From a virus, in the IMG/VR virus record IMGVR_UViG_3300021963_000328, positions 1 through 37,303 of that record: a DNA stretch of 37,303 nt, one strand, 5' to 3'. Of the stretch, positions 1 through 37,303 are shown in pieces (position 1 is the stretch's first letter; each line of letters starts with the position of its first letter). Both the position numbers and the translations under genes were made by a program. The notes below the pieces were generated by a model. It had not been told where the DNA came from, made no database searches, and worked only from the letters and a program-made list of their open reading frames with translations.

Positions 1-127
1 AATCCATACCTAAACCGCCCAAAAAACAGCCTAACTGTGTTGCATGGCTAACACACCATCAAATGCCGCAACAAATCTTGCTGCAAAAATAGTCAAAGTT
101 AGGCTATTTGGCCAAAATGGATGACTA
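1..127. repeat. 127-bp direct end repeat, left copy
   Basis: These 127 bases are identical to 36762-36888; the two sequences part at 128 versus 36889. The repeat carries inverted iteron pieces (CCTAAACCGCC at 9-19, TTAGGCTAT at 99-107). The exact length matches a common de Bruijn assembly k-mer size (127), so this is probably the overlap that closes a circular genome of about 36,761 bp rather than a packaged terminal repeat. Confidence 0.95.
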
Positions 128-134
128 TTTTTAT

Positions 135-210
135 TTTACCCTCAAACTGGCTTTATATTTACCCTCAAACTGGACGCGATTTCATTAACGTATTACCCTC
201 AAAATATGAT
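135..210 (+). promoter_or_regulatory. Early promoter/operator region with three CCCTCAAA repeats
   Basis: TTTACCCTCAAACTGG occurs at 135-150 and again at 158-173, and TTACCCTCAAA at 193-203. The third copy lies in the spacer of a possible sigma70 promoter (CATTAA at 183-188, 16 bp, TATGAT at 205-210). The same motif lies in the spacers of the promoters at 4134 and 36913. This suggests operator sites for one regulator controlling the rightward early genes. The motif repeats are seen directly; the promoter and operator roles are inferred. Confidence 0.5.
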
Positions 211-240
211 ACCGGGGCGACAGTTAAACAAAAGGAGCAA

Positions 241-522
241 ATGACCATGACTAATATTCGGCAATATGCGGACGTTCGCCAGACCCCACCCGCGACGATC
301 AATTATGAAATGCAGCCCTATGGCGCGCTCGTTTTAGGCCAGCTTACATGGGGTCAGTATAATGGGTTCCCTACGCTCTCGGGTGTTGTGGTGGAAGGCG
401 CTGAGACGGCGCGTCTATTCCAGCACGCAACGTCGCGCAGCGTGATAGGTGAACGACGCACGATCTACGCTATAGAGCAGCATGAAATCGACAGCGGCAA
501 AGCAATACGCATCGCAATGTAA
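241..522 (+). CDS. Early hypothetical protein (93 aa)
   Basis: First gene of the rightward early region in this version of the genome. I start it at ATG 241, directly after AAAGGAGCAA, because the longer open frame from 121 would run through the promoter repeats. No motif is recognised. The protein is small and soluble with no membrane segment. In the alternative module at 36889-37303 this position is taken by an unrelated 58-aa gene, so the locus is exchangeable and the product is probably an accessory early protein, perhaps a host-takeover factor. That role is inference from position only. Confidence 0.75.
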   Translation: MTMTNIRQYADVRQTPPATINYEMQPYGALVLGQLTWGQYNGFPTLSGVVVEGAETARLFQHATSRSVIGERRTIYAIEQHEIDSGKAIRIAM

Positions 523-541
523 CCCATATCAGTCGGAGCAA

Positions 542-886
542 ATGACCATGTCAAACGATCTATCCTACTACGCAACCAAGGGTGAAGCCACAGTCGCGCG
601 TCGCCTAGTCCGCGCCATGCTGGCGCGTGAATTGTCTGTCAGTGTCAATGACGGGGAAGCGTGGACAGTCAAGAAATCACGCGACTATCGCACGATCGTG
701 GACGCGCTTTGCAGCACAGGCGAAGACTATCTGCGCGTCTACGCACCGACCGCCGATTGCCTAGGGGCGTTCTATCTCGTTTGGGGCAATGACCCGACCG
801 GGGAAGAATTGCTGTCCGATTGGACCGACAATGATTTCTGCGACCGCCTCGCGCGCATCGCCTACAAAGAGGCACAAGACGCATGA
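542..886 (+). CDS. Early hypothetical protein (114 aa), conserved in the variant module
   Basis: Starts at ATG 542 after CGGAGCAA; a second in-frame ATG lies two codons later. No known domain is recognised; the C-terminal half is acidic (DPTGEELLSDWTDNDF). A diverged copy begins at 37159. Over the 48 codons visible there most nucleotide differences are silent, and the protein changes are few (SYY/SAF, R/K, A/E), which indicates a protein under purifying selection. The last codons overlap the next gene by ATGA, so translation is probably coupled. Confidence 0.85.
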   Translation: MTMSNDLSYYATKGEATVARRLVRAMLARELSVSVNDGEAWTVKKSRDYRTIVDALCSTGEDYLRVYAPTADCLGAFYLVWGNDPTGEELLSDWTDNDFCDRLARIAYKEAQDA

Positions 887-33889: not shown

Positions 33890-34152
33890 GAGCATTTCCA
33901 CCTTTTCAGACTAGCTTTGGCACGTTCGCCGTTCTTAGCTTTGGCCGCAACGGCGCCCATGCGTGCGCAGAACGACTTTTTGCGCCCTGCATCAGCCTTT
34001 GTCTTCGGGTTGGGCGCTGGCGCCTTCAGTTTGGAGCCTGTAGCGGCATTATACTTGGCGCGGCCCTTAGCAGTCAGCCCTGCGCCCTTGGACACGGGCA
34101 GCTTTTCACCGCGTCCAACAGCCAGCGATACGGACTTCTTCTTATCGGGCAT
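33886..34152 (-). CDS. DUF6321-like basic protein (88 aa)
   Basis: Start taken at 34152 (MPDKKKSVSLAVGRGEKLPV), overlapping the terminase stop by TAATG. KGAGLTAKGRAKYNAATGS, then KTKADAGRKKSFCARM and ERAKASLKRWKC match the DUF6321 pattern seen beside terminase genes. Strongly basic. The conserved KSFCARM with Cys may make a DNA- or protein-contact site. Function is unknown. Confidence 0.85.
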   Translation of the reverse strand: MPDKKKSVSLAVGRGEKLPVSKGAGLTAKGRAKYNAATGSKLKAPAPNPKTKADAGRKKSFCARMGAVAAKAKNGERAKASLKRWKCS

Positions 34153-35678
34153 TACGACCCCATCCAAGATGTAGCAATTCCACTCGAAGAATACGCCCCT
34201 ACGCGCTTCTTGTCAACGCGCGCTTCTCTGCTTGCCAGTGGGAACGCGAACGTCACCGCGATGGCGTCTGCGGCGTCTGGTGAGGCCAGCCCGCGGGCCT
34301 TCATGTCCTTCTTGCTTTCGAGAAAAATTGTCCCCTTGCTGTCGGGCTTGATGCGCGGCCCGATCAAGTCCGACTTCAGGAACCTATCGTTGGGCAGGTG
34401 GGCGTCCTTGAGCCATTCTCGCATCGCACCCCACATCTCAGCACGCTTGTTGCCGTACATGAGTTGCTTCATGGCCTTATTGCCGAAGTTGACGCCCCTG
34501 ATCTTGTACCGCTGTTCCTTGAGCCGATCTACGACGCCTGCTCCTAGCCCGCCTTCGTCGATCACGGTGATGGCCGGGTTGAACTCTTCGATAGCCTCAA
34601 TGACGTGCCCGACGACTTCCATCGTGTCTGCACCGCGCAGGCGGCGTATCTCGACGATGTCACGCCCCTGCCGGATGGCGATGACGGTCGCGTCGCTGCC
34701 GAAGCGTGCTGGATCGACGCCGATTGCGATGGGTGCGGTGTTGTCCTTGTGCTTGGGGCGCCGCATGGCGTCATCGACCAAGCTGACACCGATGAACTGG
34801 TCGTCGCCTTCGCTTGGGAACTGTCCATAAACCTCGACATTGGCTTGGTAGCTGTCAGCCCCATACTCGTCGATGATGCGCTGATAGACGTTCTTGTCGG
34901 TTCCTTCGACCGTGCGCGCGTCGATGTTGCGTGTGCGCCAGAACGCCCGCTTGGAGTTGAACGTCTCGTAGAAGTACCCCGTATTGCGACGCGGGTTGGA
35001 GAACGACAAGTGGAAGCGATGCGGCGTATTCTCCGTGAAAAAGCCATCACTGACCGACCAGATGCTGTCTGGAATACCGCTTGCTTCGTCAAATATGAGA
35101 CACACGCCGTCGAAGTTGTGGACGCCCGCGTACGCGTCAGGGTTCTCTTCCGACCACAGCCGCCCTTCGACGGACCAGTAGCGCGTGCCCTTGCGCAGGT
35201 CGCGCTCGACGATCTCGGTCAGCCACTTGGCTGGCATGATGCGTGTGGCGGCGATCTCGAACCAGTGGCTGTTGAGCGACATCGCCAGCCACTTGGTAAT
35301 CTCGGCCCATGTGACCGAGCGTAGCTGCGCTTCGGAGTTAGCCGACACGATGGTTGTCGATCCGATGCGTGTGGATAGCATCCAGATCACGACCCACGAG
35401 ACAAGGGCTGACTTGCCGATACCGCGACCCGACGCCACCGCCATGCGGAATGTATCGAAGTCCATCTTGCCTTGGTTGGCTTTGATGTGATCGCGCAGGT
35501 CCGCCAAGATGTCGCGCTGCCATTTGCGCGGCCCGTTGAAGTGTTCCAGCGGTGTGCCCGGTTCGCTCCACGGAAACGTCAGCAGCACGAACGCGAGTGG
35601 GTCATCCTTGATGCTTGGCGACCACAGCCTCGACATCAGTTCCATCTCGTCCTGCGCTGAGTAGATGGGCGTCTGCAT
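34152..35678 (-). CDS. terL: Terminase large subunit
   Basis: 508 aa. ATPase part: adenine-binding segment FNGPRKWQRDILADLRDH, Walker A VASGRGIGKSALVSW near residue 85, Walker B VCLIFDEASG near residue 195. Nuclease part of the RNase H fold: IGVDPARFGSDATV (first Asp), VIDEGGLGAGVVDRL and SPDAADAIAVTFAF (last Asp pair). It powers DNA packaging and cuts the concatemer. The start lies 77 bases inside the small-subunit gene. Confidence 0.95.
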   Translation of the reverse strand: MQTPIYSAQDEMELMSRLWSPSIKDDPLAFVLLTFPWSEPGTPLEHFNGPRKWQRDILADLRDHIKANQGKMDFDTFRMAVASGRGIGKSALVSWVVIWMLSTRIGSTTIVSANSEAQLRSVTWAEITKWLAMSLNSHWFEIAATRIMPAKWLTEIVERDLRKGTRYWSVEGRLWSEENPDAYAGVHNFDGVCLIFDEASGIPDSIWSVSDGFFTENTPHRFHLSFSNPRRNTGYFYETFNSKRAFWRTRNIDARTVEGTDKNVYQRIIDEYGADSYQANVEVYGQFPSEGDDQFIGVSLVDDAMRRPKHKDNTAPIAIGVDPARFGSDATVIAIRQGRDIVEIRRLRGADTMEVVGHVIEAIEEFNPAITVIDEGGLGAGVVDRLKEQRYKIRGVNFGNKAMKQLMYGNKRAEMWGAMREWLKDAHLPNDRFLKSDLIGPRIKPDSKGTIFLESKKDMKARGLASPDAADAIAVTFAFPLASREARVDKKRVGAYSSSGIATSWMGS

Positions 35679-36111: not shown

Positions 36112-36459
36112 AATAGTTGCATTCGGTCTGGGATGCAAGTGGCGCGACGACACACCCCGAATATGCCGCCGCGCCTCCCCCGACCTTGACTATATACTGA
36201 AAAGCCAATTGCGTTGTCGGGATGGGACAGCGGTTTTTTAAAAAATAAAAAATAAAAAAAATAATTATTGTTCGCGTACCCAGCCCGTGACAGTCACCCC
36301 GCGCTCGGCCCCCACCCCCCGGCCTAAAAACTGCCAGCAAAAAGCATTAACATTTCTGCGCAGGATTTGGGCGCGGTCATTTGGCTTGGGCGGTTTAGGC
36401 TATGCGAAACCATTTTATGGGCGCGGCGATTGCGCATCATTTTATTTGGGCAGGCTAGG

Positions 36460-36475
36460 TTTACGTTAACGTAAA
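36460..36475. promoter_or_regulatory. Perfect 16-bp palindrome
   Basis: TTTACGTTAACGTAAA is a perfect inverted repeat with no spacer, so it is a better dimer-binding DNA site than an RNA hairpin. It lies between two iterons. A second perfect palindrome, CCTAAATTTAGG, is at 36725-36736 and is made of two facing TTTAGG iteron halves. Confidence 0.6.
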
Positions 36476-36555
36476 GCTTGGGCGGTTTAGGCTATCCTCA
36501 AACAACAACCCTCAAAGTCATGACAACCGGGGGAGAGAAAGCACCGGCCAAAGAG

Positions 36556-36573
36556 AGGGGGCTTTCCCCTTTT
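36556..36573 (+). terminator. Terminator-like hairpin in the control region
   Basis: AGGGG and CCCCT pair around a GCTTT loop, followed by TTTT. It stands directly before an iteron. It could stop leader transcription started near 36500, or act as a DNA structural element. The stem is short, so confidence is limited. Confidence 0.4.
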
Positions 36574-36761
36574 GGGCGGTTTAGGCTATTTAGGCTATCA
36601 ACTTACAGTCGCCAGAATTTATGCGCTATTGCGTCTCATTCTTAACTAACACTTTTTTTTAAATTTAAGACATATCCAATAGCCTAAACCGCCTAACCGG
36701 TCGTCAAGCCCGCGCAAAACGGCCCCTAAATTTAGGCTATCCTCAAATGTTTCATAACCTA

Positions 36762-36888
36762 AATCCATACCTAAACCGCCCAAAAAACAGCCTAACTGTG
36801 TTGCATGGCTAACACACCATCAAATGCCGCAACAAATCTTGCTGCAAAAATAGTCAAAGTTAGGCTATTTGGCCAAAATGGATGACTA
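36762..36888. repeat. 127-bp direct end repeat, right copy
   Basis: Identical to 1-127. Sequence to the left of it continues the control region, and sequence to its right differs from that at 128 onward. This makes it the join of the circular genome and also the branch point to an alternative early module. Confidence 0.95.
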
Positions 36889-36912
36889 CAATAATTTTGT
36901 TGCAAAAAGGGC

Positions 36913-36940
36913 TTGACGCTAACCTCAAAGTCTGTAGATT
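36913..36940 (+). promoter_or_regulatory. Early promoter of the variant module
   Basis: TTGACG (36913-36918), 16-bp spacer, TAGATT (36935-36940). The spacer holds CTAACCTCAAAGTCTG, the same as in the promoter at 4134. It leads to the 58-aa gene at 36970. The shared spacer suggests control by the same factor as the other early promoters. Confidence 0.65.
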
Positions 36941-36969
36941 GAGGATAGTTTCAACGGGAGCAAAACGAC

Positions 36970-37146
36970 ATGACTAACGCATACATCATTCATTATATGG
37001 GCAAGCTAGGCCCGTGCTATTCAGTAGAGTATGGCAAGGATGTATTCCAAGCCGTGCAATCTTTTATGGCCCTGCGCAAACTATCCCAAATCTATTTGGT
37101 GCGCCGCATGACAAATGCGCACAACACCGGCCCGGTCTATCTTTAA
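36970..37146 (+). CDS. Variant first early gene (58 aa)
   Basis: ATG 36970 follows CGGGAGCAAAACGAC. The product MTNAYIIHYMGKLGPCYSVE continues VFQAVQSFMALRKLSQIYLVRR and ends NTGPVYL. It is unrelated by eye to the 93-aa product at the equivalent left-arm position (241-522). Small, basic, mixed alpha/beta; no family recognised. As the first gene under an early promoter it may act on the host. It is followed by AAGGAGCAAACGAA and the next gene. Confidence 0.75.
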   Translation: MTNAYIIHYMGKLGPCYSVEYGKDVFQAVQSFMALRKLSQIYLVRRMTNAHNTGPVYL

Positions 37147-37158
37147 GGAGCAAACGAA

Positions 37159-37303
37159 ATGACAATGAAAAACGATCTATCTGCATTCGCAACCAAGGGT
37201 GAAGCAACAGTGGCGCGGCGTCTCGTCAAGGCCATGCTGGCCCGCGAACTGTCCGTCAGTGTCAATGACGGGGAAGAGTGGACAGTCAAGAAATCACGCG
37301 ACT
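37159..37303 (+). CDS. Partial gene, diverged copy of the 114-aa early gene
   Basis: Starts at ATG 37159 and runs off the end after 48 codons. The sequence is a diverged copy of 542-686. It keeps NDLS, ATKGEATVARRLV.AMLARELSVSVNDGE.WTVKKSRD, and most base changes are silent third-position changes. The last 26 bases are identical to the left copy. It is a related allele from another genome or a diverged duplicate; the window ends before its middle. Confidence 0.85.
   Translation, partial: MTMKNDLSAFATKGEATVARRLVKAMLARELSVSVNDGEEWTVKKSRD

Follow-up and report, generated by a model that had tools for sequence, protein, structure and literature searches.

The stretch of DNA analysed here (37,303 nucleotides, referred to as the window) is a virus record of IMG/VR. 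It is a contig from a podovirus-like phage and encodes a P22-like portal protein, a DNA polymerase of family A and a DUF5906 protein that gives a weak RepB-primase match. The contig starts within the last part of the control region that precedes the early genes and, near its other end, runs through the control region into a second set of early genes (Table 1). In a self-comparison of the window, positions 1-127 and 36762-36888 match exactly over 127 bases; divergence sets in directly afterwards, with T at position 128 and C at position 36889. The length of this match is far beyond chance, and the whole window holds no other exact repeat of at least 30 bases. In total, 542 bases (36762-37303) extend beyond the putative point of closure, and the 415 bases that follow the 127-mer are referred to as branch B. 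The longest exact match between the end of branch B and the A side, i.e. the sequence following the first copy, is 26 bases, and the two branches do not rejoin within the contig.

Table 1. Features at the two ends of the window. Labels beginning with G or L denote other contigs.
Feature	Position	Strand	Description	Basis
127-mer, first copy	1..127	.	Contig start, within the 3' portion of the control region that precedes the early genes	Exact self-match
Variant A leader	128..240	+	Three CCTCAAA words	Word count, promoter search
Gene A (first early gene, variant A)	241..522	+	93 aa from ATG241 or 91 aa from ATG247	ORF list
Gene 2	542..886	+	114 aa, phrog_22565-like	Homologues among the early genes of G007, L029, L040 and L056
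Large terminase subunit	34152..35678	-	Query for collecting relatives	Homology
Control region	36113..36888	.	Flanked by the small terminase gene and the early genes; 7 TAGGCTAT words, both strands	85% identical to close relative L004
127-mer, second copy	36762..36888	.	Putative branch k-mer of the assembly graph and circular closure point	As long as the largest k used by JGI with metaSPAdes
Variant B leader	36889..36969	+	Sigma-70-like promoter TTGACG-16 nt-TAGATT at 36913-36940	Aligned to the L004 leader
Gene B (first early gene, variant B)	36970..37146	+	58 aa	Same-locus proteins in L085 (95%) and L086 (91%)
Gene 2' (variant B copy of gene 2)	37159..37303	+	First 48 codons, truncated by the contig end	86% nucleotide identity

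The first genes of the two modules are unrelated, and the second genes are diverged copies of each other. An earlier note on this DNA had described both, giving 93 aa for gene A and 58 aa for gene B; the former value is valid with ATG241, though the spacing of ATG247 to the GGAG is more usual. The only relative of gene A that was found is 54% identical and lies in L087, a contig without this terminase, while the gene B homologues in L085 and L086 directly follow the control region. Positions 37157-37303 (gene 2') and 540-686 (gene 2) are 86% identical across 147 nt, with approximately 12 synonymous and 9 non-synonymous changes. The resulting dN/dS of about 0.18 is, as judged from the sequences, a sign of purifying selection, and gene 2 and gene 2' therefore both look like working genes. 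A Pfam search gave no family for gene A, gene 2 or gene B; in PHROGs, gene A matched no family, and genes 2 and B matched only families of unknown function. With gene B at the same locus in two relatives and the gene 2 family in the early regions of four others, both modules are genuine.

The leaders of the two modules also differ. A sigma-70-like promoter is present on the B side and no match to such a promoter was found in the variant A leader, in agreement with the claim in the earlier note that a different promoter follows the repeat. In L004, a B-like promoter precedes yet another first gene. Upstream, the word TAGGCTAT occurs in 7 copies in the control region (8 with the repeated end), at positions within 36396-36868 plus 100-107, as compared to 0.5 copies expected in the whole window. 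The top word beat all 100 simulations in 45 of 69 control regions. In relatives, the corresponding control regions are dense in other words, e.g. TTGGGTCA, GTGGGTCA, GTGAGTCA, GGACGTCA and TGTCCACA, in up to 13 copies. Such dense words may represent iterons or operators in which the recognition word has been switched. A near-identical ribosome-binding leader, AAGGAGCAAATGACNATG, lies before several early genes (227-264, 528-565, 966-1003, 1442-1453 and 37146-37157), and these repeats could aid cassette exchange.

Among the relatives collected with the terminase, L004 is the closest (94% identical); the closest database phages are DSL-LC05 (OR003940) and Caudoviricetes sp. ctNMl277 (MW202483), the terminases of which are 68-75% identical to that of the window. 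Two relatives from different samples, L014 (G006) and L020 (G007), with terminases 88% and 86% identical to that of the window, both have a size of 30076 bases, which is probably a coincidence. In the relatives, the terminase, control region and early genes form one continuous stretch with a single cassette, and this includes 39 complete early regions, one of which is that of the circular MW202483. To describe how this cassette varies, we compared 29 early regions (28 relatives and the A path of the window), all of which hold a conserved gene like that at 1767-1997 in the window. Mean gene sharing (Jaccard) was 0.05 before the conserved gene and 0.28 from this gene onward. Among pairs with terminases 95-99% identical, the first gene was common to 1 of 95, and 59 of the 95 had no cassette gene in common. 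These figures are indicative, as gene calls were automatic and crude and the pairs are non-independent; they suggest that the first early genes turn over far faster than the terminase in this phage group. The earlier note had proposed comparing related genomes for exchange at this locus, and the comparison indeed reveals different first genes in close relatives. Its suggestion that variants share the control region and differ in their first early genes likewise agrees with the arrangement of the relatives, in which one control region is followed by one cassette and the first genes differ.

Based on these data, we consider it very probable that the tail of the contig is an assembly overrun past circular closure into the early cassette of a second strain. 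JGI metagenomes are assembled with metaSPAdes using -k 33,55,77,99,127, i.e. with a largest k of 127 (PMC7311315, PMC11584781), and the window, given its collection, was presumably made by this pipeline. In the model that we suggest, a circular-mapping podovirus genome was assembled with k=127, and the graph would split where the control region ends because at least two strains, presumably coexisting in the sample, have this region in common but differ in their first early genes. The contig would then start at the split, go one full circle, reach the 127-mer again and exit by the other branch for 415 bases. Backward extension of branch B into the 36.7-kb edge would be unambiguous because both branches have the same upstream sequence. 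We infer this assembly step from the sequence pattern and its recurrence in other contigs, both of which were observed directly. The modules themselves were probably exchanged by phage-phage recombination, with the control region and the downstream genes, both of them conserved, as the sites of crossover.

As a control, the records of the longer relatives were retrieved and both ends of each were compared. In G002 and G004, which are long IMG/VR contigs from this phage group, the first 127 bases are repeated exactly and then diverge. The repeat site of G002 matches the portal gene of the window, and the divergence after the 127 bases consists of scattered differences. In G004, the repeat is followed by 2186 bases of other early genes, one of which is a diverged version of a neighbouring gene; this tail is a different early cassette and gives the same picture as the window at another branch. 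The ends of G014 close via an exact 127-base overlap, and the overlaps in all three contigs lie at genome positions other than that of the window. Contig-end overlaps were also found in G015 (123 bases, exact) and G005 (82 bases, 90% identical). The recurrence of an exact 127-base repeat at unrelated sites is a signature of the assembly graph rather than of terminal duplication, and a biological origin of the repeat is not credible because exactly 127 bases recur at three different sites. The reading of the repeat in the earlier note as the overlap expected with k=127 accords with the published command lines and with the same length in G002, G004 and G014.

The earlier note had offered as an alternative that one genome carries both early cassettes through a non-identical terminal duplication; a tandem duplication of part of the control region, with later divergence of the copies, would have the same outcome. 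Both modules are present in the contig as written, and the homology of gene 2 to gene 2' (86%) is what paralogues would show. However, this alternative requires that the repeat be real and exactly 127 bases long, and that this length recur by chance at unrelated places in G002 and G004. Moreover, self-comparison of 19 other records revealed no duplicated control region or cassette except for the contig-end overlaps of G002, G004, G005, G014 and G015, and in a P22-like headful phage the terminal redundancy would be identical. We therefore reject this alternative as very unlikely. Even less probable is a chimeric misassembly in which branch B derives from an unrelated phage joined via a k-mer shared by chance. 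The two parts are linked by 127 exact bases only, but a match of this length does not arise by chance. Moreover, the B leader is similar to the leader of the close relative L004, and other members of the group have gene B directly behind the control region; a chance chimera was rejected on these grounds. A single phage genome in which duplicated control sequences precede two alternative early cassettes, with switching from one cassette to the other, is just as improbable.

With regard to the continuation of the second strain, branch B likely stops at 37303 due to a third branch or low coverage. A separate contig continuing branch B was not found in IMG/VR, although near-identical records may have been absent from the set searched. 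A degenerate gene 2 pattern retrieved four contigs from IMG/VR, and the two that were checked (L125 and L128) were without a matching terminase or primase; when 30 contiguous conserved bases of the branch 127-mer were used as the query, the contig of L004 was the only match. If the tail is an overrun, as we suggest, then the genome is a circle of about 36,761 bases, and 36762-37303 does not belong to that molecule as an additional segment. By the same reasoning, overrun contig ends would record strain-level gene swaps.

The overrun resembles the k-mer-length overlaps and strain branches of de Bruijn graphs as generated by metaSPAdes in that the repeat is as long as the largest k, divergence begins at the next base and several contigs of one collection are affected. 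However, the contig of the window does not stop at closure and continues for 415 bases. OR003940 and MW202483 are circular records with the same order of terminase, intergenic region, small early genes and replication genes; in contrast to the window, they have other early genes and other repeat words in the control region. Finally, the two modules of the window are a case of an already known kind, the hypervariable early-gene cassettes of tailed phages, in which short genes of unknown function right after the early control region are swapped among close relatives while the terminase and core genes remain similar, as in the group of the window. The difference is that the genes of the window and its phage group are uncharacterised.
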